Assembly: GCA_030841285.1 (NCBI GenBank) | Contig: JAVECW010000113.1 | Location: 1-64,000 of the forward strand | Origin: Microbacteriaceae bacterium | Lineage (GTDB): Bacteria > Actinomycetota > Actinomycetes > Actinomycetales > Microbacteriaceae | DNA length: 64,000 bases | Direction of reading: 5' to 3' | In this document: in pieces, positions 10,436 through 35,730 of the stretch | Numbering within the stretch: position 1 is the first letter of the stretch | How the letters are laid out: the number at the start of each line of letters is the position of its first letter | Notes under the pieces: model-generated | What the model was told of the DNA's origin: nothing | The model's database searches: none | Seen by the model: the letters and a program-made list of their open reading frames with translations, nothing else | Program-made: the position numbers and the translations under genes

Positions 10436-10471
10436 GCCAATTCGTTAGCAAAGCTCAAGGAGGGCATCACA

Positions 10472-12010: not shown

Positions 12011-12019
12011 ATGCTGATC

Positions 12020-12062
12020 GAGAACCGCTGGCAAGCTAAAGCAGCATCGCCAGCGGGTTCTC
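12020..12062. terminator. Bidirectional terminator-like hairpin between converging genes
   Basis: GAGAACC-GCTGGC (12020-12032) pairs with GCCAGCGGGTTCTC (12049-12062) with a single bulged base. It lies between the stop of the polyol dehydrogenase (12010) and the E2 gene stop (12036), with its right arm inside the last E2 codons. There is no T-run, as is common in high-GC actinobacteria. Confidence 0.6.
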
Positions 12063-15547: not shown

Positions 15548-15618
15548 GGCTTCCTCATCTTCTTTGACGGCGGCATCCGTTGCCGCAGGCGGCGACCGAT
15601 CCTTCACGATAACCGGTA

Positions 15619-15692
15619 ATTGCATCCAATATCAACACATCACACGGATATATTGCCAATACTCGGCCAATCGTGGTCATAATGGATGCAAT
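15619..15692. promoter_or_regulatory. Paired ATTG-NNNN-CAAT sites in the divergent E1 / VOC-gntR promoter
   Basis: ATTGCATCCA (15619-15628) and TGGATGCAAT (15683-15692) are perfect inverted copies of each other. Each sits in a near-palindrome of the form ATTGNATNCAAT, which resembles binding sites of FadR-type GntR regulators. A third, shorter element ATTGCCAAT lies between them at 15652-15660. One outer site is near the E1 start and the other just before the ribosome-binding site of the VOC gene. The GntR regulator in the second operon is the natural candidate binder, through looping or occlusion of both promoters. Confidence 0.6.
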
Positions 15693-19708: not shown

Positions 19709-20643
19709 CAGCGGGTCTCCAGCCCGTCGCTGACCTTCACATTTTCGGGTTCCAGGGTGAGCCCAGCGCCGCGGGCAACCTCGAGAAGCAAGGTCGCGAA
19801 GTCGTCACTCGTGTTCCCTGCGCTCACTTCCCGGGCCACAATCTGCCTGGCCGCCGACGCAAGGGGCATCGGCGCACCGAGCCTGGTGGCCGCATCCAGC
19901 CCGAGATCGAAGTCTTTCTGCAGCAGCGGCATGGTGAAGGTGGGCGTGAAGTCGAGGTTCACAAACGCAGGCGTCTTGTAACGAGTGAACACCGAACCCA
20001 TGACGGAATCGTTCAGGAAGCCGAGGAACGCTTCACGGCTCACTCCGCCCTTCTCAGCGAGCACAGTAATTTCGGCGAGCGACTGGGTGACGACGCCCAA
20101 GAATACGTTATGGGCGATCTTGACCAGGCGCGCAACCTCGCCATCGCCGACATACGTCACCCCCCTGCCCAGTTCGTTGAGGATCGGCTCGACCTCGTCG
20201 AAGACGGCTCTGGGGCCGGATGCTGCGAGGGTGAGCTTGCCCGCCGCGATCACCTTCGGATTGCCGCTCACCGGGGTGGCAAGAAACTCGGTTCCGCGCT
20301 CATTGGCGAGCGCGCGAATCCTTTCGGATGCCTCGGAAGAGACGGTCGACGAGTCAAGCACAATCCGGGGAGCGACTCCGTCAGCGGTGAGAAGTCCATC
20401 GACACCGACGGTCACTTCTTCGAGGTCCTTCGGGGCCGACACCATGATGAACACGACGTCGCGGTCGGCCAGGTCGACGGGGCGATCCACGATCTTCGCG
20501 CCCTTCTCAGCGAGCGGCTCTGCCTTTGAACGCGTGCGGTTGAACGCGGATAGGTCGTAGCCGGCATCCAGAAGACGGGTCGCGAGCGCGAATCCCATAC
20601 GCCCAGTACCGATCCAGCCAATGGTGGGTTTGGATGTCGACAT
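19708..20643 (-). CDS. NAD-dependent beta-hydroxyacid dehydrogenase (3-hydroxyisobutyrate dehydrogenase family)
   Basis: A 311-residue protein. ATG 20643 is preceded by GAGGAAGG; an in-frame GTG lies 6 nt further up. The N-terminus has IGWIGTGRMGFALATRLL, the NAD-binding motif of the family, followed by FNRTRSKAEPL. The conserved catalytic Lys is in VKIAHNVFLG, and the substrate-binding stretch is seen as ATPVSGNPKVIAAGKL. Family members oxidise 3-hydroxyisobutyrate, tartronate semialdehyde (in reverse), or related beta-hydroxyacids. It is the first gene of an operon with the M24-like protein and an aldehyde dehydrogenase, under a LacI-type operator at 20673. Confidence 0.87.
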   Translation of the reverse strand: MSTSKPTIGWIGTGRMGFALATRLLDAGYDLSAFNRTRSKAEPLAEKGAKIVDRPVDLADRDVVFIMVSAPKDLEEVTVGVDGLLTADGVAPRIVLDSSTVSSEASERIRALANERGTEFLATPVSGNPKVIAAGKLTLAASGPRAVFDEVEPILNELGRGVTYVGDGEVARLVKIAHNVFLGVVTQSLAEITVLAEKGGVSREAFLGFLNDSVMGSVFTRYKTPAFVNLDFTPTFTMPLLQKDFDLGLDAATRLGAPMPLASAARQIVAREVSAGNTSDDFATLLLEVARGAGLTLEPENVKVSDGLETR

Positions 20644-20672
20644 GGACACCTTCCTCTCACATAGTTGTGTAC

Positions 20673-20686
20673 TGCAATCGATTGCA
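20673..20686. promoter_or_regulatory. LacI-type operator 1 (before the hydroxyacid dehydrogenase operon)
   Basis: TGCAATCGATTGCA is a perfect 14-bp palindrome, 30 bp before the ATG at 20643. Read on the minus strand, TTGCAA at its upstream edge is 18 bp from TATGTG, so the operator would overlap the -35 element. It is one of six copies of the same element in this array. Confidence 0.82.
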
Positions 20687-20760: not shown

Positions 20761-22455
20761 CTAGTCGACAGCGGGCCGAAGAGCGGAAAACTCAGCGGAT
20801 GCGTGAGTCACCGCGCCGCCCACGATCGTGAGATCGCTCCTAATCTCCCGAAGCGCGTCGGTGTCACACTCGAAAGGATCGAACGTCGGTACGCAGAGGT
20901 CAGCTTCGTAACCCGGCACGAGCCTGCCGCGCTCGTGCTCTTCACCCGTGAACCACGCCGCGTCCCTGGTGTACGACGCAAGCGCTTGTTCCACGCTCAA
21001 TAGATGTTCCGCATCGCGCGGTGGTGCACCGTCGATGGATTTCCCGGTAACGAGCCACCAGATCGACGCCCACGGCGAGAACCAGTTGGCGCGGGTTGCA
21101 TCCGTTCCTCCGCCGATCGTGACCCCGTGCGCCCGCATGAGCCCGATCGGCGGCGCGGTGCGAACCGCGTCTGCACCCCAGCCCTCGCGATAGTCGGTCG
21201 ATTTGAGCATGAGGCGGTTCTGCACGAGCACTCCAGCACCCAACGCCGCGATCCGATTGATGCTCTCCTCGCTCGCCTGGTCGGCGTGCACGATGGAGAA
21301 GCGCCTGCCGGCGACACCGCCGGTCTCACTCTCCACCTGTTCCCACGCATCCAGGACGCGACTAAGTGAATCCTCGAGGACGGCGTGCACGGACATCGGC
21401 CAGCTCGCCTGCGCGCACATTCTGACGATCTCGACCAGTTCGTCATAGGCAATCTGCTCAAGGACGAACGGATCCAGCCCCTCCATGTCGTGACACGACA
21501 GATGCGGAATCTCGCCGAGGCCCACGACGCGCAGCCGGCGGTCGCCGAACCCAGGATGCAGGAATTCCGTCAGGGCCGCGACGTCGCCGACCTCGCCGCC
21601 CCTCGTCCAGGCCGAGATGAACAACCGCACCCTCACGGCGAGTGCATCATCGCTCCAGAGCTTGAAGAGCTGGTGGTAGTCGTGCGGCGTCATCTTGAGA
21701 CCACCCCCGTCGGCAACGCCAGTGAGCCCGTGAGCGGCGAACTCGCGGAACATCGCGCGGGTGCCCGAGTACGACTGCTCCGGAGTCGCAGCGAGCGCAA
21801 GGGCGAGCGGCACCGCAAACGCTCCCATGCCGATGATCTGGCCGGTGACCTGGCCGACAGCATCCCGCAGCAGCTTTCCACCGGCCGGATCTGCCGACGA
21901 GTCATCCCATCCACACGCCGCAAGCCCTGCCGAGTTGACCACACCGTGGTCGTATAACTCCTGGATGAAGACGGGGTTATCCGGCGCGACCGCGTCCAGT
22001 TCCGCGCGCGTCGGCAACCGGCGCTCCTCGAGCTGGCGGGAGTGCCAGCCACCGACAACGGAGATCCACTGCCCAGGTTCGAGGGCCGAGGCGCGTGCTC
22101 CGATCTGCCGCAGGCCCTCTGCCAGCGACCGCACGTCCTCCCAGTGCAGCGACAGGTCCCAGCTCGCGCCCGCCCGTACCGCGTGAATGTGCGAGTCGAT
22201 GAGACCGGGCAGCACCCGCCGGCCAGCAAGGTCAATTACCCGTCTCGCCTGTGCTGCGAGCGGTGCGAGCTCATCGTCTGTACCGGCCGCGACCACTCTC
22301 CCGTCACGAATGGCGATCGCGGAAACCTGGTTCGGCGTCGATGCGTCGTCCTCGGTGCCGGTCCAGATCTTTCCGCCGACGAGCACGAGATCCACGAGGT
22401 GCAGGGTCACAGGTGCGACGGTCGCCGCGCGAAAATCCGTCATCGCCGCCGTCAT
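20761..22455 (-). CDS. Amidohydrolase family protein, YtcJ-like
   Basis: A 564-residue metal-dependent hydrolase. A beta-sandwich leads into the His-x-His motif LPGLIDSHIHAV (His89, His91). Later ligands are suggested by MSVHAVLEDS, SIVHADQ and GGGTDATRAN. The sequence resembles YtcJ/NfdA-type amidohydrolases, which cleave C-N bonds such as formamides; the natural substrates of most members are unknown. The ATG overlaps the stop of the upstream amidohydrolase in a TAATG junction, so the two are translationally coupled and probably act in sequence on one compound. It is the last gene of this operon. Confidence 0.86.
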   Translation of the reverse strand: MTAAMTDFRAATVAPVTLHLVDLVLVGGKIWTGTEDDASTPNQVSAIAIRDGRVVAAGTDDELAPLAAQARRVIDLAGRRVLPGLIDSHIHAVRAGASWDLSLHWEDVRSLAEGLRQIGARASALEPGQWISVVGGWHSRQLEERRLPTRAELDAVAPDNPVFIQELYDHGVVNSAGLAACGWDDSSADPAGGKLLRDAVGQVTGQIIGMGAFAVPLALALAATPEQSYSGTRAMFREFAAHGLTGVADGGGLKMTPHDYHQLFKLWSDDALAVRVRLFISAWTRGGEVGDVAALTEFLHPGFGDRRLRVVGLGEIPHLSCHDMEGLDPFVLEQIAYDELVEIVRMCAQASWPMSVHAVLEDSLSRVLDAWEQVESETGGVAGRRFSIVHADQASEESINRIAALGAGVLVQNRLMLKSTDYREGWGADAVRTAPPIGLMRAHGVTIGGGTDATRANWFSPWASIWWLVTGKSIDGAPPRDAEHLLSVEQALASYTRDAAWFTGEEHERGRLVPGYEADLCVPTFDPFECDTDALREIRSDLTIVGGAVTHASAEFSALRPAVD

Positions 22456-23789
22456 TACGCTGCCCCCGGCCCGATGCGGATGAGATCGGGTAACAGGTAA
22501 TCGCGGGAGATTCGCGCTTCGTCCTGCACCGCGCGGGCGTCATGTCCGACCAGCTCGCCTGCCGATTTCACCAGGGTTCCAGCCACGAATACGTTCTCCA
22601 CGTTCTCACTGTCGCTGAGCGTGATCGCAGCGGGGAGGTTGTTCACGAGCGACAGGTTGGGTGTGTCGATTCTCAGCATGATGATGTCGGCCTGCTTGCC
22701 CGGCGTGAGCGATCCGATCTCCTTCTCCAGGCCAAGCGCCCGCGCTCCCCCGATGGTTGCCATCTCAACGACATCACGTGTGGTCAGCTGGAGTTCGCTC
22801 GTCCACTCCCCGCGGCTCAGGGCCTCGTGATTCTGCCAGCCGCGCTCCGCCTCGAGGGTGCCGCGCATCTCGGCGAAGATGCTGCCGCCGACCCCACTGA
22901 CCACATCGACGCTCAGGCTCGGCTGAATGCCCGCCGCGATGAGGCGGCCGGTGGCCGGATAGCCGTGACCCATCTGCATCTCGACGCGCGGTGAGATGGA
23001 AACGTGGCCGCCGGATTCACGAATGAGTTGCAGCTCCTCGTCAGTGCAGGTGTTGCAATGCACGAAGATGAGGTCGGGTCCGAGCAGGCCGAGCCTGTTC
23101 ATCTCGGTGATCGATCGCTTCTGGCCGAGCAGGCCGACCCCCAGGTGGATCGAGGTGCGGATGTCGAGCTCGCGCGCCAGCTGCACGTCTGTGATGGTCT
23201 CCTCAAAGCTCGAGAACTCCGGGCCCAGGCTCGCCATCGCGAGCGTCAGCAACCGGTCACCGCTCGAGAAATATTGCGATGCAACGCGTCGGACGTCCTC
23301 GACGTACCACTCTGCGGATGGAGAGGCCGGCACTCCATACCCGAACACGGCACGGATGCCGGACGCTCGCAATCCTGCGATCGCTGAATCGGCGTGATCC
23401 GGTGAGTTCATGATGTGCGACCAGTCCATGATCGTCGTAATGCCGCCGTTGAGCGCCTCGAGCGAACCGAGCAGGTCGGCGATGTAGACATCCTCAGGCC
23501 TGAATGCGGGCCCGTACTTGCCGAGCATGTTCTCCACGTACTGTCCGAGCGTCCAGTCGGCGGCGATCTGGCGGATCGATGACTGCCACATGTGCCGGTG
23601 AGTATCGATCAGGCCCGGCATCACGATCCGATTGGTGGCGTCGATCAGTTGCGCGTCTGGAGCATGGATGTCGGCCGCCACAGCGACGATGCGCGAGCCC
23701 TCGATCAGGACGTCACCCGTGGGTAGATCGCCTATCGCCGGGTCGGCGCTGAAAATGATTCCGCCTTTGATCAGCGTCTTTTGAGACAT
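22455..23789 (-). CDS. Amidohydrolase family protein, TRZ/ATZ (cytosine deaminase-like) type
   Basis: A 444-residue enzyme of the triazine hydrolase/adenosine deaminase-like group. Metal ligands seen: His64 and His66 in PGLIDTHRHMW, the His in TSIHLGVG, the His in FVHCNTC, and the Asp in SLSVDVVSG. Residues 1-58 and the C-terminal strand region form the usual beta-sandwich. These enzymes deaminate or dechlorinate N-heterocycles or hydrolyse related amidines. The start at 23789 has GAGGAG at good spacing. It is the promoter-proximal gene of a two-gene operon under a LacI-type operator at 23831. The substrate is not assignable from sequence. Confidence 0.87.
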   Translation of the reverse strand: MSQKTLIKGGIIFSADPAIGDLPTGDVLIEGSRIVAVAADIHAPDAQLIDATNRIVMPGLIDTHRHMWQSSIRQIAADWTLGQYVENMLGKYGPAFRPEDVYIADLLGSLEALNGGITTIMDWSHIMNSPDHADSAIAGLRASGIRAVFGYGVPASPSAEWYVEDVRRVASQYFSSGDRLLTLAMASLGPEFSSFEETITDVQLARELDIRTSIHLGVGLLGQKRSITEMNRLGLLGPDLIFVHCNTCTDEELQLIRESGGHVSISPRVEMQMGHGYPATGRLIAAGIQPSLSVDVVSGVGGSIFAEMRGTLEAERGWQNHEALSRGEWTSELQLTTRDVVEMATIGGARALGLEKEIGSLTPGKQADIIMLRIDTPNLSLVNNLPAAITLSDSENVENVFVAGTLVKSAGELVGHDARAVQDEARISRDYLLPDLIRIGPGAA

Positions 23790-23949
23790 GTCTTCTACTC
23801 CTCATTGAGCCCAAGAACGGAACGTTGTTACACAATCGATTGCACTGACTATGAAGCAATGGGCCCCGTGCCGTCAAGTGGCCCTCGCGATTATGCAGCT
23901 AATCCATAGTCGTAGCCGCACAGAAACAAGAGCGAGAGCATCGTGTGAT
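23790..23949. promoter_or_regulatory. Promoter gap with LacI-type operator 2 (23831-23844)
   Basis: CACAATCGATTGCA (23831-23844) carries the invariant core CAATCGATTG, 42 bp before the amidohydrolase start at 23789. A further inverted pair GACTATG (23847-23853) / CATAGTC (23905-23911) lies upstream. The rest of the gap, back to the stop of the FAD oxidoreductase at 23950, shows no gene. Confidence 0.8.
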
Positions 23950-25494
23950 TCAGGGCATCGACATGACAGTCGCCGAGCCGATGCCGAGATCGTCAAGAAT
24001 TGTTCGCGCGGAATTACGCCCGGGCCGACCGGTAACCGACCCTCCTGGGTGGGAGGTAGAGCCGGTCAGGTATAAGCCCGGTACATCGGTGCGGTATTCA
24101 CGCCACCCACGGACCACGGTGCCGTCGTCGAGCTCAAACTCCCCGCCATGGCACGATCCTCCAACATTGGACAGATTGTGCGCTGCAAGCGATGTCGGCG
24201 ACTCCACTCTCATTGCGAGAATGTCTTCGGGATCCAAACCATCCACGTGCTCACGTGCGATTTCAAGCAACCGGTTCGCATAGTTCTCACCGTCGATTTG
24301 GCTCCACTGGGCACCGTCCAGGAATTCGGGCACGACGGTGAGAAACTTGAAGACGCCACCGGGAGCCCTATCGGGATCGACCACTGTTGACGAAACCATC
24401 AGAAGCCACGGCGAGGCCGTTTCAAGGTCGCCTGATTGCGCCGCCACCACCTGCCGATGAAGCCCATCTGGAGTTCCTAGCCCTCCAGCAACAGCGCGTA
24501 AGGGACCAGACGGTGTCCGGTATCGGACGTCGGCGCGGAGCGCGAAGTGGACCGCAAACGCCGACAAGCCCGGGCGCCAGCGAGAGGCTGCGTCATCGAC
24601 CATGGGAGACGAGAATCCCAGTAATTTGGGTAATTCGGTCAAGTGGCTCGCTGCGGCAATTGCACGCCGCGCTCGAAAGGTACGGCCGTCTTTCGTTCGT
24701 GCGCCCACACACCTTCCGTCTTCAACGATCAGAGAATCGACCCACGCGTTGGTGAAGATCCGTCCGCCGTGGTCCTCGATATGAGCCGCTAATGCCGCGG
24801 GGAGAGCACCCGAACCGCCGACCGGAGTCGTCCACCCGAACGCAATTCGCCCAGCCATCATCGCTGCGGGCAATGCACCCGTGCCAGCTTGCAATGGCGA
24901 TTGCAAAGTCGCGAAGGCCATCCATATCATCGCCTGGCGCACGACGGGGTGTTCGAAGGTCTCCATAATGAAGTCCCACGCCGTCCCCCGTCTCATGCGC
25001 TCGTACCGAAGAGACACCGGATCGTCTGGAAGGTCGAGGCCCGCGGAGAAGTATGCATGCGCGCCCCGCAGCCCGGAGTCCCAATCCTGCAACATGGAAC
25101 GCAAAGCATCGGCATCGTGCACCGACCAGCGGGCGAACTCGCGAACAGTGGCTTCAAGGTCGGAGTGGATGACGATGGCCTCTCCTCCATCGAGCGGAAT
25201 TACCGTTGCCGGGTCCGTCACGATGTACGTGAGCCCATAGCGCGAAATCAATCCGAGCTCGTCATTGCGGATCAGCGGGTTCGATTGAATGACCACGTGG
25301 GCGCTGGAGCACGAATCATGCAGCCAGCCTGGAAGCGTGAGTTCTTCAGTTACCGTATTCCCGCCGAGGATTTCGCGCCCCTCAAGCACAGTGACGCTGA
25401 GGCCGGCTTCCGCCAGATATGCGGCACATACCAGGGCGTTGTGCCCCCCGCCGATAACGACAATGTCGCTTTCCGCGCCATCATTATCGGACAT
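23950..25494 (-). CDS. CrtI-like NAD(P)/FAD-dependent oxidoreductase
   Basis: A 514-residue flavoprotein. The N-terminus has SDIVVIGGGHNALVCAAYLA, the FAD-binding Rossmann motif, ending with VLEGREILGGNT. The C-terminus has the second FAD signature (GLYLTGSTSHPGGSVTGRPG). This layout is that of phytoene-desaturase-like and related amine/alcohol oxidoreductases. ATG 25494 lies inside the last codons of the preceding ATPase gene (11-nt overlap) with GAGGAAAG upstream, so it is co-translated with the importer. That coupling suggests it performs an early oxidation or desaturation of the imported compound. It has no carotenoid genes around it. Confidence 0.83.
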   Translation of the reverse strand: MSDNDGAESDIVVIGGGHNALVCAAYLAEAGLSVTVLEGREILGGNTVTEELTLPGWLHDSCSSAHVVIQSNPLIRNDELGLISRYGLTYIVTDPATVIPLDGGEAIVIHSDLEATVREFARWSVHDADALRSMLQDWDSGLRGAHAYFSAGLDLPDDPVSLRYERMRRGTAWDFIMETFEHPVVRQAMIWMAFATLQSPLQAGTGALPAAMMAGRIAFGWTTPVGGSGALPAALAAHIEDHGGRIFTNAWVDSLIVEDGRCVGARTKDGRTFRARRAIAAASHLTELPKLLGFSSPMVDDAASRWRPGLSAFAVHFALRADVRYRTPSGPLRAVAGGLGTPDGLHRQVVAAQSGDLETASPWLLMVSSTVVDPDRAPGGVFKFLTVVPEFLDGAQWSQIDGENYANRLLEIAREHVDGLDPEDILAMRVESPTSLAAHNLSNVGGSCHGGEFELDDGTVVRGWREYRTDVPGLYLTGSTSHPGGSVTGRPGRNSARTILDDLGIGSATVMSMP

Positions 25495-26254
25495 GGTTCT
25501 CGCTTTCCTCGTGCGCCGAGGCGCCCGCACCGAGGTACAGCCGTGCAACCTCAGGATCGTTCAACAACGATTCGCCCGAACCGGTGAGGGCGACGACACC
25601 GGCTTCAAGCACGGCAGCGCGATGCGCGACCGCGAGCCCAGACCGAGCGTTCTGCTCGACAAGAAGCACCGACCGACCGGTCTTGGCCAGACCAGAGATG
25701 CTCGCAAACACCGAGGTGCGCGATTTCGGGTCGAGACCGATCGATGGCTCGTCGAGGAGGATGAGCGCGGGGTCGAGCATGAGCGAGCGGGCAAGTTCGA
25801 CCTGCTTCTGCTCGCCGCCCGACAAGGATCCCGCGGCGGAGGACCGGCGCTTTGCAACAATCGGGAACGCCTCAGCCACTTCCTCCATCCGGCTTTTGAC
25901 CACGTTCTGGTCCGTGAGGATGAACCCACCCATCATGACGTTCTCCCACACGGTCATCCCGGGGAAGAGGCTGCGCTCCTGCGGCACATGGACGATGCCG
26001 CGCCCGAGGCGCTGGCGCGACGCCATCGCGCTAATGTCGGTGCCTGCAAACATGACGGTGCCCGACTTGGGGCGAAGCAAGCCGCTGATCGACTTGAGCA
26101 CAGTCGACTTTCCCGCACCGTTCGGACCGATGAGGCACACGATCTCGCCACGGTTGACGGAGAGGTTGACCCCCTTGAGGATGAGCCCCGCGCCGTAGCC
26201 GGCTGTGACATCCGTGAGTGTGAGCAGGATCTCTGCGTCGGCGCTAGCTGCCAA
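25484..26254 (-). CDS. livF: ABC transporter ATP-binding protein, LivF-like
   Basis: A 256-residue ATPase of the branched-chain amino acid (HAAT) importer family. The start is taken as TTG 26254 because GGAGG sits 6 nt upstream, in the end of livG, and conserved sequence begins right after; ATG 26329 would overlap livG by 86 nt. Motifs: Walker A GPNGAGKST, signature LSGGEQKQ, Walker B LILLDEPSIGL. It works with the LivG-like ATPase to drive uptake. Its 3' end overlaps the FAD oxidoreductase start by 11 nt and its 5' end overlaps livG by 11 nt. Confidence 0.9.
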   Translation of the reverse strand: MAASADAEILLTLTDVTAGYGAGLILKGVNLSVNRGEIVCLIGPNGAGKSTVLKSISGLLRPKSGTVMFAGTDISAMASRQRLGRGIVHVPQERSLFPGMTVWENVMMGGFILTDQNVVKSRMEEVAEAFPIVAKRRSSAAGSLSGGEQKQVELARSLMLDPALILLDEPSIGLDPKSRTSVFASISGLAKTGRSVLLVEQNARSGLAVAHRAAVLEAGVVALTGSGESLLNDPEVARLYLGAGASAHEESENHVR

Positions 26255-26978
26255 GGTATGCCTCCAGGACGAGGGGATCGGTTTGGATGGTTGCGGGGGC
26301 GCCGAATGCAATGGGCGCTCCTTGATCAAGCACGACGACCGGGTTGCAGAGTCTCATGACGAGCTGCATGTCGTGCTCGACGATCAGGAATGTCACTCCC
26401 GCGGCATTGCGCTCGCGAATGTGCCGCTCCATCGTGTCGATCATGACCGGGTTGACACCGGCCGTCGGTTCGTCGAGAAGAACGAGGGACGGCTCGCTCA
26501 TGAGCACCGCCGCGAACTCGAGCAGCTTGCGCTGGCCGTAGGAGAGCTCGCCGGACGGCAGGTGCGCGAGGGACTCGAGCCTGAATTCATGCAGCATCTT
26601 CTGTGCACGGATCTCGTCGTCGAGTGACACTCGCCGTCCAAACAGGCCCTTCCACGTGTACCCCGCGGCGACGACGAGGTTCTCGATGACAGTGAGTTCC
26701 GGGAAAATGCGCGCCTGTTGGAATGTACGGGACAGCCCCTTGCGGTACAGGTCAGCCGGGCGCGGTCGGGTGATGGTTTCACCGTTGAAGGTGATCGACC
26801 CTGAGTCTGCCGCCAGGTAACCCGTGATCATGTTGAACAGCGTCGTCTTGCCTGACCCGTTCGGGCCAATGAGGGCTGTTATCGACCCCTTCTCGACGGA
26901 GAAGGAACAATCGTTGACGGCGGTCACCCCGCCGAATCGCTTGGTGAAGTGGTCGACGCTGAGCAGCATGTCGCTCAT
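26244..26978 (-). CDS. livG: ABC transporter ATP-binding protein, LivG-like
   Basis: A 244-residue ATPase. Walker A GPNGSGKTT, the Q-loop region, signature LSYGQRKLLEF and Walker B LVLLDEPTAGVNP are all present. The LivG-type length and C-terminal extension fit the HAAT family. Its ATG overlaps the livM stop (ATGA). It forms the nucleotide-binding pair with the LivF-like protein. The importer serves the LacI-controlled cluster, so its substrate is probably the pathway compound rather than leucine. Confidence 0.91.
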   Translation of the reverse strand: MSDMLLSVDHFTKRFGGVTAVNDCSFSVEKGSITALIGPNGSGKTTLFNMITGYLAADSGSITFNGETITRPRPADLYRKGLSRTFQQARIFPELTVIENLVVAAGYTWKGLFGRRVSLDDEIRAQKMLHEFRLESLAHLPSGELSYGQRKLLEFAAVLMSEPSLVLLDEPTAGVNPVMIDTMERHIRERNAAGVTFLIVEHDMQLVMRLCNPVVVLDQGAPIAFGAPATIQTDPLVLEAYLGS

Positions 26979-28027
26979 CGGGTGACTCCCGTCTGGTGTG
27001 CTGCTGGTTGGGCGGAAACTGCGGATGCCGCGTCGCTGGCGTCACGGAGAATCCCATTCGCCGCGGCTCGCTTTTTTCTCAGCCGATCCGAGATGGACGG
27101 AAGGATGCCGCGCGGGAGGAAGAGCATGATGACCAGGAACACGGCGGCGTATGCAAACAGGTACAGCTCGCTCGCCCCGAAGGTGAAGGCAAAGAATTCC
27201 TGCGCCGGCACGAGGATGAACGCCCCGAGCACCGGACCCCACAGCGTTCCGCGACCGCCCAGGAACGTCATGAGCACCATCCCGATCGTGATCAGTGGGT
27301 CGACTGCGAACTGCGGGTACACGAATCCGACGTAGTAGGCCCAGACTCCGCCGACCATGGCGACGAGGCCACAGCTGACGGCGAAGGCGATGAGCTTGAC
27401 GGCAGTGACGCGTACGCCGACACCGTGCGCCTTCTCCTCATCGGCGCGGACCGTCGCGAGCGACAGCCCGATCTTCGTCTTCCTGAAATAGAGCGAGATG
27501 CCCATCGCGACGGCGAGCAGCGCGAGCATTACGTAGTAGAACGGCCAGTTGTACGTCGAGACGTCGAAAGGCGCGGGCGCGACACTCTTGCCCTGGGCTC
27601 CCCCGGTCACGGTGTTGAAGTTGAATGCAAGGGTCTGAGCGATGAACAGCACGGTGATCGTGACGATGGCGAAGACATCCGCCCTCGTCCGCATCGCAAC
27701 CCATCCGATCGGGAGGCTGATGAGGGCCGCACCGATTGCGACGAGAGGAAGCACCACGAAGGGAAGGTACCCACCGTAAACGCTTCCGTTGAAGATGATC
27801 GCTATCGAGTACGCACCCAGGCCGAAGAACGCCGCGTGGCCCAGCGACGGGTAGCCCGCATACCCGCCGACGAGGTTCCACGAACTGGCAAGTGCCGCGT
27901 ACATGATCGTGAAGATCAGGGTGTTGGTGACCCAGCCGATCTGTCCGGTAACGAGCGGAATGACAATCAGCACACCGAAGAAGACAACGGCGCGAACTAC
28001 GCCGATGCGAGCGAGCAGGGCTTTCAC
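26975..28027 (-). CDS. livM: ABC transporter permease, LivM-like
   Basis: A 350-residue permease with about nine to ten hydrophobic segments. The family hallmark is visible at SWNLVGGYAGYPSLGHAAFFGLGAYS (shown here as segments SWNLVGGYAG and SLGHAAFFGLGAYS), and GGRGTLWGPVLGAF occurs near the C-terminus. It pairs with the LivH-like permease to form the channel. It overlaps livH upstream and livG downstream by 4 nt each, showing a tightly coupled operon. Confidence 0.91.
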   Translation of the reverse strand: MKALLARIGVVRAVVFFGVLIVIPLVTGQIGWVTNTLIFTIMYAALASSWNLVGGYAGYPSLGHAAFFGLGAYSIAIIFNGSVYGGYLPFVVLPLVAIGAALISLPIGWVAMRTRADVFAIVTITVLFIAQTLAFNFNTVTGGAQGKSVAPAPFDVSTYNWPFYYVMLALLAVAMGISLYFRKTKIGLSLATVRADEEKAHGVGVRVTAVKLIAFAVSCGLVAMVGGVWAYYVGFVYPQFAVDPLITIGMVLMTFLGGRGTLWGPVLGAFILVPAQEFFAFTFGASELYLFAYAAVFLVIMLFLPRGILPSISDRLRKKRAAANGILRDASDAASAVSAQPAAHQTGVTR

Positions 28028-28902
28028 AGGGCACCTCGAGTCCGTGCTCCGAAGAGACCGCGAGGCCTCAGCAGCAGCACCAGTAGCAGAACGATGAAGA
28101 ACGTGAAGTCCGACCAGATGGGGGACGCCTCGGCCGAGACGACGGAGGAGGCGACTCCCATCACGAGCGCGGCGACGACGGATCCCCCGATGCTCCCGAG
28201 TCCTCCCAGGACGACGACTGTGAGCAGTCGACTGATCAGGTCGTAGTGGCTTCCGGGGTTGAAGGCGTTGAGCATGCCGAAGACGGAGCCGGCGGATGCC
28301 GCGGTCGCGGCCCCGAGGCCGAAGCCGAGGGCGGATACCCGCTGGGCGTTCACCCCCAACAACTGCGCAGACATCGGGTTCTGTACGGTCGCACGGACCG
28401 CGCGACCGAACTTGGTCCGCTTGAGCACCAGGTACAGCACTGCGAGCACGACAAGGGAAAGAACGAAGGCGAAGAACCGCACGAGGCTGACCTGGAAGCC
28501 AAAGACCGTCCAGCTGAAGTTCGCGTACGACGGCTGGATGTTGGTGAGTGTTGTGCTGTATGTAAAGGACAGTATGCCCTCCACCCCCAGCTCCAACGCG
28601 AATGTCACCAACAGTGACAGCTGGGCCACATCGTCACTGTGAAGCGGCCGGAGGAGAGCCCATTGGAGGCCCATCCCGACCAGGAACATCAGTGGCGTCG
28701 TGATCAACACCGAGGCGAACGGGTCCACACCAAACTGCACGAAGAGGGTGTAGGTCAGGTAGGCGGCGAGTACGACGAACGCTCCTTGCGCGAGGTTGAC
28801 GACCTTCATGATTCCGAAGATCAGCGTTTGACCGCTGGCCATCAGCGCGTATACACCCCCCGTGAGGATGCCGAGGATGATTGCTTGGATTAGTGCATGC
28901 AT
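28024..28902 (-). CDS. livH: ABC transporter permease, LivH-like
   Basis: A 292-residue permease with about eight membrane segments. The N-terminal ILGILTGGVYALMASG, LIFGIMKVVNLAQGAF and the GGLGSIGGSVVAALVMG loop are characteristic of LivH proteins. It lies 48 nt after the binding-protein gene and overlaps livM by 4 nt. With LivM it forms the transmembrane part of the HAAT-type importer. Confidence 0.92.
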   Translation of the reverse strand: MHALIQAIILGILTGGVYALMASGQTLIFGIMKVVNLAQGAFVVLAAYLTYTLFVQFGVDPFASVLITTPLMFLVGMGLQWALLRPLHSDDVAQLSLLVTFALELGVEGILSFTYSTTLTNIQPSYANFSWTVFGFQVSLVRFFAFVLSLVVLAVLYLVLKRTKFGRAVRATVQNPMSAQLLGVNAQRVSALGFGLGAATAASAGSVFGMLNAFNPGSHYDLISRLLTVVVLGGLGSIGGSVVAALVMGVASSVVSAEASPIWSDFTFFIVLLLVLLLRPRGLFGARTRGAL

Positions 28903-28950: not shown

Positions 28951-30201
28951 CTATCCAGCCCAGTTGGGCTTGGGAGCGACCGGTGAGGTTTGCGCCGTCT
29001 TGGCGGGGTACACCGTCTGGAGCTTGCCGTTGACCCACTGCACGAGCAGGTACTCGCCCTTGGGCTTTCCTGTCGCGTCCCAGCTCAGGGTGCCAACGAG
29101 GGTGGGCCAGCTACCAGAGTGCAGCGTCTTGATGATGGTGGCGTTGTCGACCTTGCCGGTCTTGGTAGCGACTTCCTGCAGAAGCATGCCCGCGGAGTAC
29201 GCCTCGGCCGAGGTGGGGTCGATCTGGTTGGCATCTCCGCCGAACTTCGCAATGTAGTCGGAGATGAACTTCGCGCTACCGGAGACGGTCGAGTCTGCAT
29301 ACCAGTCGATGCTTCCGAAGACGCCCTCCGTGTTGGCAGACGAGACGGCGGCAGGGAAGTCGCCCGGCGAGTTTGAACCGTTGGCCTCATAGAGCCACTT
29401 CGGGTTGAACTTGAGCTGGATCATCGCCTTGATCTGCGCGAAGGCGTCGCCTTCCTGGGTTCCGCCAACGACGACATCCGGCTTCGCAGCGGCGATTCCC
29501 GCGACGATTGGGGTCATGTCGGCGGTCTCAGACGGGTAGGTCTGGTTGTAGACAGTCTTGATTCCTGCTGCCTCGAAGCGCTTCTGGATGCTGTCTGCGA
29601 TGGGTGCGGAGAACGGGTCGTCGAGCTTCGCGTACGCCGCGGTCTTCGGGCGCTGATCCGCGGGCAGGGACAGGATGTAGTTGGCGAAGACATCGCCGCC
29701 CCGCGTTGACTCGGCCGGCTGTACAAAGAAGAGATTGTTCAACTTCTGGTCGAAGACCGAGGGACCGCCACCGGCTGGCTCGATGAATGAGTATCCGTAG
29801 CGCGATGCGACTCGGGATGCCGGCACGGTCAGCAGGCTCGAGAACGGCCCGAAGACGATGTCGACCTTGGTCTGCGTGATGAGGTTGGTGTAGTTGGTCA
29901 CGACCTGGTCGGGGCTCGACGCGTCATCGACGATATCGAGCTCGACCTTGCGACCCAGAACACCGCCTGACTTATTGGCGACGTCTGCCCAAAGCTGATA
30001 GCCCCGCTGGGCTGCCTTCCCAGACGACGAAAAGTCACCGGTCAGCGACAGTGAGATTCCGATCTTGAGTGGCGCCGAGTTGGATGCGCTCGGCGTGCCG
30101 CTAGCGGCTGCACATCCGGACAGCGCGAGAGCGGAGGCGGCGAGAACGCCCACTCCCCAGAGTCGGGCACGCGATAAACCGCGGCGTTGGTGTAGATGCA
30201 T
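28951..30201 (-). CDS. ABC transporter substrate-binding lipoprotein, LivK/HAAT family
   Basis: A 416-residue lipoprotein with lipobox ALSGC (Cys30). ATG 30201 is preferred to the adjacent ATG 30204 for its spacing from AGGAG. The mature protein has the periplasmic-binding type I fold: LKIGISLSLTGDFSSSGKAA, GGVLGRKVELDIVDDAS, VDIVFGPFSSLLTVPAS. Ligands of this family include branched-chain amino acids, amides, urea, and aromatic or heterocyclic acids. It starts the importer operon and is preceded by a LacI-type operator at 30278. The ligand is probably the inducer-related compound degraded by the surrounding enzymes. Confidence 0.91.
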   Translation of the reverse strand: MHLHQRRGLSRARLWGVGVLAASALALSGCAAASGTPSASNSAPLKIGISLSLTGDFSSSGKAAQRGYQLWADVANKSGGVLGRKVELDIVDDASSPDQVVTNYTNLITQTKVDIVFGPFSSLLTVPASRVASRYGYSFIEPAGGGPSVFDQKLNNLFFVQPAESTRGGDVFANYILSLPADQRPKTAAYAKLDDPFSAPIADSIQKRFEAAGIKTVYNQTYPSETADMTPIVAGIAAAKPDVVVGGTQEGDAFAQIKAMIQLKFNPKWLYEANGSNSPGDFPAAVSSANTEGVFGSIDWYADSTVSGSAKFISDYIAKFGGDANQIDPTSAEAYSAGMLLQEVATKTGKVDNATIIKTLHSGSWPTLVGTLSWDATGKPKGEYLLVQWVNGKLQTVYPAKTAQTSPVAPKPNWAG

Positions 30202-30204
30202 CAT

Positions 30205-30356
30205 TGCTCCTAACGGGGTAAGAACGTCTAGCGCATTCGTTCGACGTCAAACCCACCGGGATTCATCATCGAATTACCGCAATCGTTTGCGCTACTTTGT
30301 CACCTCTTTTGATCCCTGTCAAGAGTTGACAATGCCAGCGAAACCGGCGGACGTCC
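30205..30356. promoter_or_regulatory. Importer promoter with LacI-type operator 3 and a second palindrome
   Basis: The operator CGCAATCGTTTGCG is at 30278-30291, 77 bp before the start at 30201. A perfect 6-bp dyad TGTCAA-GAG-TTGACA lies at 30317-30331; read on the minus strand, its TTGACA (30317-30322) is a good -35 hexamer. The operator would then lie downstream of this promoter, a position suited to blocking transcription. Confidence 0.7.
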
Positions 30357-31376
30357 TCACGCCTGGTGAACGCGAGCGGTGGAGGCTCGAACGATGAGTT
30401 CGACGGGGAGCACGACCCGCACCGCGCTGCGGTCGGCGTCTTCGATCTGACGCAGGAGAAGCCGCGCAGATTCCGTGCCCAGCTCGGCCTGAGGCACGCG
30501 GACCGTGGTCATCGGTGGCTGGAAATCTCCGGAAAATGGCATGTCATTGAAGCCGACGACTGACATGTCCTCTGGGCAGCGAAGTCCGTGAGTCCGCAGC
30601 GAATGGTAGACGCCCAGAGCGAGCAAGTCGTTCCCAGCGACGACCGCAGTCGGCTGGGAAGAGCGCTCCGCCAGCACCGCATCCATCACGCGCTGCCCCT
30701 CGTCGACGGAATACGAGCCACACAGCGCAACCGTGCCAGAGAGACCGAATTCTGCGCACGACGAGAGGAAGGATGCGGCTCGAACGCGGCTGGTGGAGAA
30801 GCTCGCTGGCCCCTCGAGGTGTACGAGGCGACGGTGCCCAAGTTGGGCCAAGTGCTCGACGGAAGCACGGATTCCCTGGCTGTCGTCCCCAACGACTGCG
30901 GGGTATGGCACGCCTCCTGAGTCACGGTTGACCATGACCCCTCGAATTCCGCGCTCATACGCTTCGTGCACGATGGATTGTCCGGTGTGGCCCGTCGCGA
31001 AGATGAAACCGTCGACCTGGCGCTGCACAAGTGACTCGAACAACTGGCGCTCGTTTGCGTCGCTTCCATCGGTGTTGACGACGACCGTGGAGTACCCGCG
31101 TGGTAGCAGATAGTTGTCGATGCCGCGCACGATGGGCGGAAAAATCGGGTTGGTGAGGTCAGGGATGATCACCCCGACGGTCATCGACGAGCTGGTTCGC
31201 AGCCCGCGAGCGATCGAGTTGGGCGAGTAGCCAAGCCGCTTGGCGGCGTCACGAACGCGCCGAACCGTGTCGACGTTGACCTGGTTCTCGGTCTTCTTGT
31301 TAAGTGCGCGCGAGACCGTTCCGGGGTGAACCCCCGCAAGTTTCGCCACCTCCGAAATAGTGACCCGCGTCGACAT
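30357..31376 (-). CDS. LacI family regulator, probable repressor of the catabolic regulon
   Basis: A 339-residue LacI family protein. ATG 31376 is used; upstream in-frame codons would run through the operator and promoter. The DNA-binding domain is TISEVAKLAGVHPGTVSRALN (hinge region follows at SPNSIARGLRTSSS), and the effector domain includes VGVIIPDLTNPIFPPIVRG, VNRDSGG and GFNDMPFSGDFQPPMTTV. LacI repressors release DNA when a sugar or small metabolite binds. The promoter carries operator 4, so it is probably autoregulated. The -10 (TATCGT) is so close to the ATG that the mRNA is likely leaderless. All other operator copies lie in front of neighbouring catabolic genes. Confidence 0.92.
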   Translation of the reverse strand: MSTRVTISEVAKLAGVHPGTVSRALNKKTENQVNVDTVRRVRDAAKRLGYSPNSIARGLRTSSSMTVGVIIPDLTNPIFPPIVRGIDNYLLPRGYSTVVVNTDGSDANERQLFESLVQRQVDGFIFATGHTGQSIVHEAYERGIRGVMVNRDSGGVPYPAVVGDDSQGIRASVEHLAQLGHRRLVHLEGPASFSTSRVRAASFLSSCAEFGLSGTVALCGSYSVDEGQRVMDAVLAERSSQPTAVVAGNDLLALGVYHSLRTHGLRCPEDMSVVGFNDMPFSGDFQPPMTTVRVPQAELGTESARLLLRQIEDADRSAVRVVLPVELIVRASTARVHQA

Positions 31377-31405
31377 GGCACAACGATAGCAGTGGGCCCT
31401 CAATT

Positions 31406-31419
31406 TGCAATCGATTGCC
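31406..31419. promoter_or_regulatory. LacI-type operator 4 (in front of lacI itself)
   Basis: TGCAATCGATTGCC, 30 bp before the lacI start. Read on the minus strand, TTGCAA at its edge is 16 bp from TATCGT, so the operator overlaps the -35 box. This supports autoregulation. Confidence 0.82.
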
Positions 31420-31471
31420 CAGGATCGGCACCGTGCGGAGACCACAGCCTCTCAATGCTCGCCGGTCCGAT

Positions 31472-33004
31472 CTAGCTGGCAGGTGGCCAACTGGGAATCG
31501 ATCCGCGGCCCGACGGAAATCGCACGTTCTTTGCCCGCACGAACTCATGGAGGGTGTCGGCCCCATACTCGCGCCCATAGCCGCTTCCCTTCACGCCTCC
31601 AAACGGAGATCCTATGAACGTGCGCCGGGTGTAATTGTTCACAAACACCATGCCAACCTCGAGTCGCTGAGCCAGCCGGCTCGCTCGAACCTCATCGCTG
31701 GTGCAGATCGCTGCCGTAAGCCCATACTCGGTGCTGTTCGCCACGACAACTGCTTCATCATCCGTCTCAAACCGCATGAGGCACGCGACAGGTCCGAATA
31801 TTTCTTCTCGCGCGACCGACATTTCCGCCGTGACGTCACCCAGAACACACGGTGCTACATAGAATCCCTCGGAGAACTCCGGCGCCAAAGAAATAGTTCC
31901 TTGATAAAGGAGTTTGGCGCCTTCCTCCACCCCGAGTTTCGCATAGCCCTGCACGCGCTCCTGTTGTCGCGCATCCACCATCGGCCCGATATCCGTCTTT
32001 GGATCCAACGGATCACCAACGACCAGTGCCCGCGTTCGCTCGACGAACCGTGTCGCGAACTCATCGTAGATCGAAGAGTGCACCAAGATCCTCGATGTCG
32101 ATGTACAAGCCTCGCCCTGGTTGTAGAACATGCCCTCGATCGCGATCGCGACCGCGTCGTCCAGGTTTGCGTCATCAAGGACGATAAGCGCGTTCTTCCC
32201 CCCAAGTTCGAGCGTGGCAAACGTGAGGTTCTTCGCTGCGCTCTCCATGACCTTGCGTCCGGTCGCTGTGGAACCTGTGAACGAAATACGTTCGACGCGG
32301 GGGTGAGATGCCAATGCAGCCCCCGCCGAAATCCCGGATACCGCGTTGATCACACCCGGGGGCAGCACCTCATTGGCGATTTCCACCAGCCGCAGCACGG
32401 TGAGTGGGGCCTGCTCACCAGGCTTGATAACGACCGTGTTGCCAACCGCGATCGCTGGCGCACATTTCTTCGAAAAATGGATCGGCGGCCAGTTGAATGG
32501 CAGTATCGCGGCGACCACACCGTAGGGCTCGTAGGCAATCCGGGCTTCAATCGGACCCTGATCCAGGATTTCGCCGTGCACGGTATCTGCAATGCCCGCA
32601 TAGTAGTCAAAGCTCGAATGGCTGGACACGACGTCCACTCTGAGGGCGTCTCGCCTCGGCTTACCGACCTCCCGGGAGACCAGCTCGGCCAGCTCTTCCG
32701 CGTGGTCACGAATACGTTGCGCAACTTCGCGCATCAGAACACCACGTTCCTTCGGCGACAGATACCGCCAGACGTCCTCGTAAGCCCGCCTCGAATCAGA
32801 CACCGCACGATGGACGATTTCCTCCGTCGCAACGGCTACTCGAGCCATCGGTCGCCCGGTAGCGGCCTCAAGAACTTCGAAGCTGGGGGCCCCCTCAACC
32901 TCTAGGAACTCACCTCCGATGAACGACCCCCACACGGTCCGCCTTCGCAGCAGTAGATCCGTGGCCGACTCCATCGGCGTCACGGTCTTCTGATTCGCTG
33001 TCAT
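31472..33004 (-). CDS. NAD(P)-dependent aldehyde dehydrogenase
   Basis: A 510-residue aldehyde dehydrogenase. ATG 33004 follows GAGAGG; an ATG at 33046 has no good site. Motifs: ILPFNWPPIHFSKKCAPA, FTGSTATGRKV, the general base Glu in LELGGKNA, and the nucleophile Cys in NQGEACTSTSR. It differs clearly from the GabD-like enzyme at 16966, so the pathway has two aldehyde oxidation steps, or two substrates. It stands as a single gene with its own LacI-type operator at 33072. Confidence 0.88.
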   Translation of the reverse strand: MTANQKTVTPMESATDLLLRRRTVWGSFIGGEFLEVEGAPSFEVLEAATGRPMARVAVATEEIVHRAVSDSRRAYEDVWRYLSPKERGVLMREVAQRIRDHAEELAELVSREVGKPRRDALRVDVVSSHSSFDYYAGIADTVHGEILDQGPIEARIAYEPYGVVAAILPFNWPPIHFSKKCAPAIAVGNTVVIKPGEQAPLTVLRLVEIANEVLPPGVINAVSGISAGAALASHPRVERISFTGSTATGRKVMESAAKNLTFATLELGGKNALIVLDDANLDDAVAIAIEGMFYNQGEACTSTSRILVHSSIYDEFATRFVERTRALVVGDPLDPKTDIGPMVDARQQERVQGYAKLGVEEGAKLLYQGTISLAPEFSEGFYVAPCVLGDVTAEMSVAREEIFGPVACLMRFETDDEAVVVANSTEYGLTAAICTSDEVRASRLAQRLEVGMVFVNNYTRRTFIGSPFGGVKGSGYGREYGADTLHEFVRAKNVRFPSGRGSIPSWPPAS

Positions 33005-33071
33005 GTAAACCCTCTCGATTTTGAGCGTGCCACGCGCACTCGTCATTGAGTAGCCGCCATCTGTAGGCTAA

Positions 33072-33085
33072 CGCAATCGTTTGCA
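33072..33085. promoter_or_regulatory. LacI-type operator 5 (before the second aldehyde dehydrogenase)
   Basis: CGCAATCGTTTGCA, 68 bp before the start at 33004. On the minus strand its edge TTGCGT lies 18 bp from TACTCA, again placing the operator over the -35 box. Confidence 0.8.
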
Positions 33086-33165: not shown

Positions 33166-34074
33166 CTACCAGGAGAATATTGATGAATACTCGTCCTCGA
33201 GTCGGTCAAGTTGGGGTGTGGGCAGGTAGCGGCGGCGCAGTTCCAGCAACACAGCGATGGACTCACGATCCGCCACTCCGTCAGGGATCAGGCCGGTCGA
33301 CGGCGCTAGAACACGTCGATAGTGAGCTTGCGCTTCAGACTCGGTTAGGTTCAAGATCGCCATGGCAGATTCGACTACCTCGGCCTCCCTGCCACCCTCC
33401 ATAATCTCCTGCGCAGTTTCGAGGAGGACTCCCGCGAACCGTCGGCGTCCATCACGAATCGTATGGTCGCTGCTCTCGCTGGCTGCAAGTACGCTTCCGA
33501 TGTATGGGCCCAGGTCGGTAACCGGTGCAACAATGCTGCAGCCCTTGGCCTGGGCGCGAAGCTCATTCCCGGCGCCGAGCACGGTGGCGGCACAGCGCGA
33601 CTCGCTCAACGCGGAGGCCCGGAGAGGCGTCGAACCGAGAGCTTCAACGCTGTATTCGCCCGGGTGCAGACCCGCCCGCTCGAGAAGCGCGTAAGCAACA
33701 AATGCGAAGCCGGAATCGGGCACATCCACACCGACCGATTTGCCGCGCACATCATCGATGGATGTGATCTCTGGCGAAAGACAGATCGACAAACCCAAAC
33801 CACGGTCGAGTGCGGCGAGGATCGCGACCGAGAGCTTCCGCCCGAGTGGATTACTCGAGAGAAAACGATAGGCAAGAACATTATCGGGGCTAGTGATGGC
33901 GACATCAATCTCGCCGCGTTCCAGAGATCGAAATTGCGCCGGTGACGATGCCACAGACGTTTCTTGCAGGTCAATCCCGGCCCGACAGAGCCGGCCCGAA
34001 TGTCGCGCAACGTCCACAACTACCGATGGGGTGAATGCACCGACTCGCAGCTGAATTTCGACCATAAGGCACAT
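33166..34074 (-). CDS. Substrate-binding-protein-like protein without export signal (SsuA/THI5/NMT1-like)
   Basis: A 302-residue protein. The fold pattern is that of periplasmic binding proteins of the SsuA/THI5 type: GEIDVAITSPDNVLAY, DDVRGKSVGVDVPDSGFAFVAY, LGSTPLRASAL. It begins directly with a beta strand (VEIQLRVGAF) and has no signal peptide or lipobox, so it should stay in the cytoplasm. No permease gene of its own is present. It could sense, carry or convert a pathway intermediate. ATG 34074 lies only 13 bp from operator 6; ATG 34065 is an alternative start. It is expressed from its own LacI-controlled promoter. Confidence 0.72.
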   Translation of the reverse strand: MCLMVEIQLRVGAFTPSVVVDVARHSGRLCRAGIDLQETSVASSPAQFRSLERGEIDVAITSPDNVLAYRFLSSNPLGRKLSVAILAALDRGLGLSICLSPEITSIDDVRGKSVGVDVPDSGFAFVAYALLERAGLHPGEYSVEALGSTPLRASALSESRCAATVLGAGNELRAQAKGCSIVAPVTDLGPYIGSVLAASESSDHTIRDGRRRFAGVLLETAQEIMEGGREAEVVESAMAILNLTESEAQAHYRRVLAPSTGLIPDGVADRESIAVLLELRRRYLPTPQLDRLEDEYSSIFSW

Positions 34075-34086
34075 GATGGCACAGCT

Positions 34087-34100
34087 TGCAATCGTTTGTG
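34087..34100. promoter_or_regulatory. LacI-type operator 6 (before the binding-protein-like gene)
   Basis: TGCAATCGTTTGTG, the least symmetrical copy, with the invariant core CAATCGTTTG. It lies in the 53-bp gap before the gene at 33166-34074. Confidence 0.72.
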
Positions 34101-34127: not shown

Positions 34128-35600
34128 TTAGGTGAGCGCCGCTAATGCGATTGGTTGATCGGAGCCCAGCCGCGTCCAGCCGACTGCGTCGCCACTCATG
34201 GGTTGACTTCCGCCGCGCAACACGTGAAGGAGAATGTCCTGAATGCGTTGCGCGTAGTCATCCAAAACTCCAGCAGCCGTGGGGGTAACGGGGTGTCGGA
34301 TGCTGATGTGCACGCCGTCATGCTGACGCGAAATCCACACGTGGCTGTCGTCAGCTTCGGTTACCCGACCCATGGTGCTCGCATTCCATTCGGAATGACG
34401 GTCGCCTCCCGGCATGGTTCGGTAGTCGGTGAATGACACCATCGAAAAGAAGTCCCGGCGGCTGATATGGAAGTCGTCCCCAAGAAGTTCGACCATCCGC
34501 AGGGCGGGAAAGCTTGCCAGCCGAAGTGCTCGCTGGGTGCTCAGTTGGGCCTCCCGCAGTACGTCCGTGAAGCTCTTGGCACCTTCGAGCGAGAACTCCA
34601 CTGGGGTGCAGGTGACGAACCAGCCCATCGCATGCCGCCACGCTGGACGGCGTCGCGTTTGCGCGGGCGTGATTGTGCGGAAGACTTCTTCCCCCGTCAT
34701 GGAATGAATTGAAATTGCCATCGCAGCGAGGATCCCGGCGAAGATTCCGCCGTTCCTCTCCTCGCAGACCGCTTCGAATCCCTCGGCTTCCCGCGGGGTG
34801 AGGAATCGCTGGTTGTAGACGCTCTGGGGCCACGTCTGGCCAGCGACGATGCCGAGATCCAACGGAAAGGCAGGGGCAGTTCCCCCGCATGCGCGGACGA
34901 ATTCTCGCCATTGGCCGACCGCCTGATCCTCCGCAGTGATCGTTGCGCCACGGCTCCGCTCTGCAGCGCAGAGTTCAAGAAAACTTCCCGTCTCGGGAAG
35001 TTCCGGGGTGCCGCCGCCCAGGAATGCCTCGTAGGTGGTCTCCAGCTCCCACACGGCCAGTGCCAGCGAGTAACCGTCGCCTGCGGTGTGGTCCAAAGCG
35101 ACGAACACTGTGGAGCCACTGTTCCGGATGACCACGCCCAGCACCAACGGGGGCCACGCGAATGGGTCGGTCCCTGCGGCGAAGCGCCCGTCGAGATAAT
35201 CGTGCAGCGTATCCGCGGAGTCGAAGAAGGACTCCGGCTCCTGCACGAGCTCAATCGAGTCCGCCGTGAGTGTGAACCGCTCGATTTCGTCGCCAGAGTC
35301 GCTGGGCCGGAATCCGCTGCGGAGGGCCTCGTGCCGTTCCATCCAGGAGCTGAATGCATGGCCGAGCGCATCGAGGTCGGCAGCGCCTTCAAGGTCGAAT
35401 GAGGTACCGATCCAGGGGTTGCCTGGCAGACCCATTCGATGGGCAGCCAGCGACGACTTCAGGTGCAGTTCCTGGTTATACGACAACGGAATGGGATCGA
35501 TGGGCGCGTACGGCACGGTCGCCGCAGTATCACGGCTCACGGTCCACTCGACTACGGTCCCAGGGTCGGGACGAAAATCCAGGAAAGAAATCGGCTTCAT
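34128..35600 (-). CDS. Stand-alone condensation-domain (NRPS C-domain / PapA-like) acyltransferase
   Basis: A 490-residue protein of the CoA-dependent acyltransferase/condensation superfamily. PIPLSYNQELHL near the N-terminus matches the usual opening of C domains. The active-site His-x3-Asp-Gly is HTAGDG at 171-176. A latch-like region with DFFSMVSFTDYRTMPGG is seen in the second half. There is no adenylation or carrier domain here or next to it. Such free-standing proteins acylate or esterify lipids and small metabolites. ATG 35600 is used; a TTG at 35618 is possible. No LacI operator precedes it, so it is probably separate from the regulon. Confidence 0.8.
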   Translation of the reverse strand: MKPISFLDFRPDPGTVVEWTVSRDTAATVPYAPIDPIPLSYNQELHLKSSLAAHRMGLPGNPWIGTSFDLEGAADLDALGHAFSSWMERHEALRSGFRPSDSGDEIERFTLTADSIELVQEPESFFDSADTLHDYLDGRFAAGTDPFAWPPLVLGVVIRNSGSTVFVALDHTAGDGYSLALAVWELETTYEAFLGGGTPELPETGSFLELCAAERSRGATITAEDQAVGQWREFVRACGGTAPAFPLDLGIVAGQTWPQSVYNQRFLTPREAEGFEAVCEERNGGIFAGILAAMAISIHSMTGEEVFRTITPAQTRRRPAWRHAMGWFVTCTPVEFSLEGAKSFTDVLREAQLSTQRALRLASFPALRMVELLGDDFHISRRDFFSMVSFTDYRTMPGGDRHSEWNASTMGRVTEADDSHVWISRQHDGVHISIRHPVTPTAAGVLDDYAQRIQDILLHVLRGGSQPMSGDAVGWTRLGSDQPIALAALT

Positions 35601-35730
35601 GCGAGAAACAACCCCCAAGGTAGGTAGGACGTCTTGTCTACATAGAGGCTATGCTCGCGGTGTTAACGGCCGGTTACTATCGGCTGTCAATCGCGCAGCT
35701 TCCGTCGACCAGCTCGCAGGTTGCAGCGGC

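Follow-up and report, generated by a model that had tools for sequence, protein, structure and literature searches.

What does a protein with the fold of a transport binding protein do when it has no leader, no transporter of its own type and a LacI operator in front of its gene? The question is raised by a gene on the minus strand (33166-34074) of a 64,000-nucleotide stretch of a Microbacteriaceae genome, called the window below. The initial annotation described the product (here, the SBP-fold protein) as a binding-protein-like protein kept in the cytoplasm, and suggested a metabolite chaperone, a sensor or an enzyme. Our best explanation, which we regard as close to evenly balanced, is that a binding protein has here been turned into a cytosolic enzyme that supplies an aldehyde to the neighbouring dehydrogenase.

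The gene itself is real. The minus-strand ORF 33166-34074 has an orthologue in the same genus that is 89% identical, and the substitutions between the two pile up at third codon positions (dN/dS 0.19), as expected under purifying selection. In this orthologue (locus L041), the counterpart of the first ATG (34074) is shifted out of frame by an insertion of one base. It is therefore the second ATG, at 34065 (MVEIQLRVG...), that is conserved as the start, and the product is a leaderless protein of 299 amino acids (33166-34065, minus strand). The family alignment contains 29 invariant columns among 50 sequences. The first strand of the predicted fold is formed by residues 4-10, three residues past the start.

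In profile searches, the SBP-fold protein matches the Phosphonate-bd, NMT1, TAXI and SsuA models only weakly. The Pfam NMT1 score is 19.7 bits for the 299-residue form and 20.7 bits with in-frame neighbours included, the cut-off being 20.5 bits; the 299-residue form scores below the curated cut-offs of the SsuA/TauA/NrtA-type families (Pfam NMT1, Phosphonate-bd). The nearest solved relative by sequence is 3qsl, a putative exported protein. The AF2 model, built with 50 relatives in the alignment (pLDDT 95.4, pTM 0.91), has as its best PDB neighbours NrtA, CmpA, TauA, SsuA and PqqT (Z 24-26); further neighbours are Thi5 (Z 22.8), MqnD (18.8) and DszB (17.8). In this model the protein has the type-II binding-protein fold (SsuA/THI5-type) that had been recognised in the initial annotation.

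Upstream, the frame is open for 64 codons, in which the two ATGs (34065 and 34074) are the sole start codons, and neither of the other two frames provides a leader; the preceding gene ends at 34128. This rules out a missed upstream start or a frameshift yielding a leader: every possible start was checked, and none gives a signal peptide or a lipobox. Among actinobacterial relatives, 56 were examined in the named loci; each of them begins at roughly this position, again without a leader. A predicted location in the cytoplasm, as originally proposed, is thus well supported, the leaderless state being fixed across the clade. The gene directly upstream (34128-35618) encodes a stand-alone condensation-domain protein. 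It was considered as a partner and rejected, as no match to it was seen in any related locus.

The genome contains two NMT1-type matches, the SBP-fold protein and a protein on contig C119. The latter belongs to a canonical NitT/TauT-type system (9562-12590 of locus L040), in which an NMT1 lipoprotein is accompanied by a dedicated ATPase and permease. Of the two, only the C119 protein adjoins a permease and an ATPase of the same type, and it carries a lipoprotein leader. No cognate (NitT-type) permease or ATPase was found in the cluster of the SBP-fold gene, in agreement with the earlier remark that a matching permease is missing; the transporter of the cluster is of the LIV type and has its own lipoprotein LivK. 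Having neither a leader nor such a permease, the SBP-fold protein falls outside the transport families.

The genes of the cluster all lie on the minus strand. Next to the SBP-fold gene are genes for its co-inherited partner, a betaine-aldehyde-dehydrogenase-like aldehyde dehydrogenase scoring below the BADH cut-off (31472-33046), and for a LacI-family regulator (30357-31445). They are followed by a LIV-type ABC importer, namely the LivK-type binding protein, an exported lipoprotein with a leader and a lipobox (28951-30204), and LivH, LivM, LivG and LivF (25484-28902). Then come a PRK08204-subfamily amidohydrolase (22455-23789), an amidohydrolase 3 family protein (20761-22455) and two core genes of the cluster, encoding a 3-hydroxyisobutyrate-dehydrogenase-like (HIBDH-like) reductase (19708-20649) and a DddP/Xaa-Pro-peptidase-like enzyme of the M24 fold (18464-19708).

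The best curated match of the M24-fold enzyme is the DMSP lyase DddP, with 98.6 bits against a cut-off of 600. It is probably an unassigned core enzyme of the pathway, because copies with 70-88% identity are widespread in Microbacteriaceae. M24 orthologues (at least 70% identity) occur in 28 Microbacteriaceae genomes, six of which also contain the SBP-fold gene. Elsewhere in the window, the E1 alpha and beta parts of a 2-oxoacid dehydrogenase are encoded as a single chain of 754 amino acids (13361-15625), adjoining an E2 gene and a VOC/GntR pair; these genes recur in related clusters. At the window edge (789-2906) there is a large exported protein that, judged by eye, looks like a right-handed beta-helix of the pectate-lyase kind.

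The neighbours within reach in 57 related loci are the HIBDH-like reductase (34 loci), the M24/DddP-like enzyme (28), LacI (27), LivK (26) and the aldehyde dehydrogenase (21), all these counts being lower bounds given contig ends and the 10-kb flank. Some loci contain E1/E2 parts of 2-oxoacid dehydrogenases, a VOC protein, a GntR regulator or SSADH, and some also carry a relative of 2,6-dihydroxypseudooxynicotine hydrolase and a molybdenum hydroxylase. One might guess from the latter two at an N-heterocycle or beta-diketone route.

The pattern RCAAWCGWTTGY has six sites in the whole 2.57-Mb genome. All of them are in the window, and each precedes a cluster gene, whereas the reversed control pattern does not occur in the genome at all. 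The site of the SBP-fold gene (GCAATCGTTTGT, 34088-34099) is placed 22 bases before the start at 34065, in accordance with the initial description of a start directly after a LacI operator. The other sites found by the pattern search lie before the genes for the aldehyde dehydrogenase (GCAATCGTTTGC, 33073-33084), LivK (GCAATCGTTTGC, 30279-30290), the PRK08204-type amidohydrolase (ACAATCGATTGC, 23832-23843) and the HIBDH-like reductase (GCAATCGATTGC, 20674-20685), and at the start of the lacI gene (GCAATCGATTGC, 31407-31418). The LacI-family protein of the cluster is the presumed repressor of this regulon. Operators upstream of SBP-fold orthologues are kept in most loci whose cluster has LacI; they are situated near the start in mycobacteria, and there are two sites in Streptomyces. 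In total, the 57 named loci contain 79 operator sites and no matches to the control pattern. Control of the gene by the same LacI operator is therefore well supported, both by the six-site regulon and by phylogenetic conservation. In Acidimicrobiia, the SBP-fold gene is present with neither LacI nor an operator nearby.

In Microbacteriaceae, the SBP-fold gene is inherited together with the aldehyde dehydrogenase. Among 300 Microbacteriaceae genomes, the SBP-fold gene (at least 44% identity) was found in five (G000, G054, G022, G099, G114), and the dehydrogenase (E 1e-150) in the same five and in G044, where the SBP-fold gene is absent and the dehydrogenase gene runs into the contig end. Thus the dehydrogenase is present in 5/5 genomes with the SBP-fold gene and in 1/295 without it (Fisher's test, p = 3e-10; the test takes genomes as independent, and as G000 and G054 represent one genus, the real association is less significant than this value). 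Four genera are represented among the five genomes. Where the SBP-fold protein is less similar (34-38% identity, three relatives), the dehydrogenase is missing. In other groups, the dehydrogenase goes with the SBP-fold gene almost without exception in Acidimicrobiia and in roughly half of the mycobacteria, and is absent beside it in Streptomyces, Nonomuraea and the most divergent subclade; the pairing is therefore not universal. In Acidimicrobiia (L042-L055) the pair lies side by side in tandem, and in L034 and L072 convergently, so that their adjacency survives rearrangement.

Three clusters (L112, L114, L118) contain LacI, LivKHMGF, HIBDH and M24, with LivK 75-83% identical to that of the window. 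They have neither the SBP-fold gene nor the dehydrogenase, and operators are seen only before livK and HIBDH. Therefore neither the regulator nor the importer needs the pair, and the two genes look like an accessory module added to a regulon that was already in place.

The 51 actinobacterial sequences in a 68-protein tree, all leaderless, form one clade (support 100/99) that spans Acidimicrobiia, Mycolicibacterium, Streptomyces, Nonomuraea and Microbacteriaceae. The family is rare in a sample of 396 actinobacterial genomes. It is a real, conserved leaderless family with the binding-protein fold, and a literature search, largely outside subscription journals, found no described leaderless family of this kind. 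In the same tree, the window protein and its same-genus orthologue are placed among Acidimicrobiia and not with other Microbacteriaceae, and this placement suggests that the module may have been moved by horizontal transfer. One Streptomyces orthologue (12001-13032 of locus L022) has an insertion of more than 40 residues, rich in Ala, Gly and Pro, after about residue 135, within a loop of the second domain.

The proteobacterial side of the comparison, which consists of plasmid records only, includes both exported relatives (L024, L025, L026) and relatives that are not exported (L023, L027, L028, L101). The more distant leaderless relatives are encoded in operons with MFS carriers and enzymes (arylmalonate decarboxylase, CHA aldolase and a cupin, xanthine dehydrogenase), and in none of these operons is there an adjacent NitT-type permease. 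Operons of this kind on rhizobial, bradyrhizobial and methylobacterial plasmids (L100-L104) contain leaderless genes of the binding-protein fold, which are annotated as ABC transporter binding proteins. On plasmid pMTS1 of Cupriavidus sp. P-10 (9827-13463 of L026), the exported relative directly adjoins an amidohydrolase-3 protein that starts with a Tat/lipoprotein-like leader, while both counterparts in the window are leaderless. These two cases hint that the SBP-fold protein and the amidohydrolase-3 protein share a compartment.

An enzymatic role for the SBP-fold protein is suggested firstly by these distant leaderless relatives, situated in varied enzyme operons without a permease of the same type. 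Secondly, the accessory linkage is with a dehydrogenase and not with a transporter. Finally, the fold is known from several enzymes of the cytosol. In the proposed scheme, an inducer would relieve LacI from the operator upstream of the SBP-fold gene. The protein, having given up its role in transport, would then belong to the soluble part of a catabolic pathway under LacI control, working in the same step as the neighbouring aldehyde dehydrogenase or next to it. The closed inter-domain cleft would be the active site of a lyase, decarboxylase or hydrolase, and the product released would be an aldehyde, subsequently oxidised by the dehydrogenase. A more specific version, which we offer as a conjecture, is that this is a new cytosolic enzyme family in which invariant Asp, Asn, Thr and Arg residues of the cleft perform an undescribed bond cleavage yielding the aldehyde for the dehydrogenase.

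The residues S41, Q44, T58, D61, N62, D87, R88, D114, S118, R149 and Y188 are conserved across the clade. Judging from the DSSP string of the model and the known fold, they would be mostly at strand ends and helix starts lining the cleft. The 50 sequences contain no invariant His, Cys or Lys and no near-invariant His. Most of the conserved cleft residues also occur in the exported relatives (position 118 as S/T, and D87-R88 in part). This points to ligands of one class, and it is chiefly for this reason that catalysis is not claimed here. Since these relatives bind, the same residues would equally suit a cytosolic protein that holds an intermediate, reactive or in short supply, and passes it unchanged to the dehydrogenase or another enzyme. 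Such delivery or buffering would explain the co-inheritance and regulon data just as well, and by sequence it is inseparable from catalysis. However, we know of few precedents for free-standing cytosolic carriers of small metabolites, and the very different enzyme operons of the distant leaderless relatives are more natural for a catalytic step. We consider a carrier rather unlikely, though it is the most serious competitor of the enzyme.

If the protein sensed a ligand in the cytosol and thereby modulated LacI or gated the LIV transporter, in the manner proposed for the NrtC/CmpC domain, this would fit the adjacency of the SBP-fold gene to lacI in many loci; the regulatory domains of NrtC and CmpC also rank among its closest neighbours by structure. 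On the other hand, LacI and highly similar Liv transporters exist without the SBP-fold protein, and Acidimicrobiia keep the protein without LacI. It is for these reasons that a partner of the regulator or a part of the transporter is unlikely, and we rate the sensor as improbable. Thus, among the three roles left open by the initial annotation, the sensor has lost ground, and a metabolic role as partner of the neighbouring dehydrogenase is favoured.

That the protein is exported, by some route not yet recognised, and acts as a normal binding protein for transport seems very improbable: 3qsl is a putative exported protein and some proteobacterial relatives have signal peptides, but there is no possible leader here or in the 56 relatives examined, no cognate permease is present in the cluster, and Liv is served by LivK. 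A relic that has lost both leader and function, to which the missing transport partner might point, is hardly credible, being contradicted by the purifying selection, the invariant columns and the conserved operators.

New here are the similar LacI/LivKHMGF/HIBDH/M24 clusters that have no SBP-fold gene, and the Acidimicrobiia that carry the gene without LacI. Databases label such proteins "ABC transporter substrate-binding protein", whereas neither this family nor its leaderless relatives in other catabolic operons seem to function in transport, and all of them may thus conceal a number of unassigned catabolic enzymes. The close association with the dehydrogenase, together with natural clusters with and without the pair, makes the function directly testable. 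The family is a possible case of a binding site turning into an active site.

Among known systems, the SsuA/TauA/NrtA-type binding proteins share the overall fold (Z 24-26) and give weak HMM matches, but the SBP-fold protein has no signal peptide and no permease or ATPase of the same type. The cytoplasmic regulatory domain of CmpC/NrtC is likewise a binding-protein fold acting in the cytoplasm. However, it is fused to an ABC ATPase, whereas the SBP-fold protein is free-standing and not tied to a transporter. In NrtC, this domain carries a putative site for nitrate, and the inhibition of transport depends on it (PMC6603209).

The cytosolic enzymes of this fold offer a closer functional parallel to the role proposed here. 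DszB (2'-hydroxybiphenyl-2-sulfinate desulfinase, 2de2/2de3) is leaderless and performs a catabolic step (Z 17.8 over 273 residues). Its catalytic residues, which we take to be Cys27 and His60 (the numbering agrees with the PDB chain sequence), have no counterpart in the SBP-fold family, and by sequence there is no match (hhalign probability 6.6); a DszB-like desulfinase was rejected on both grounds. Thi5/NMT1 HMP-phosphate synthase (4h67, 4esx) is cytosolic with an SsuA/THI5-like fold (Z about 22.8). It is a single-turnover biosynthetic enzyme that uses its own His66 and PLP, and the H66G mutant and PLP complexes are among the PDB entries found as structural neighbours. The lack of an invariant or near-invariant His in the 50 sequences excluded this identity. 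MqnD (2czl) and related enzymes of the menaquinone pathway are also cytosolic with the binding-protein fold (Z 18-19), but they act in biosynthesis, and no sequence-family match of MqnD to the SBP-fold protein was found. In aromatic catabolic operons, 4,5-dihydroxyphthalate decarboxylase (Pht5/OphC) is a leaderless binding-protein-like enzyme. By likeness to DszB, Thi5, MqnA/MqnD and cyclohexadienyl dehydratase, an enzyme is the most likely identity of the SBP-fold protein, and for cyclohexadienyl dehydratase the evolution of a binding protein into an enzyme is documented (PMC7683729).
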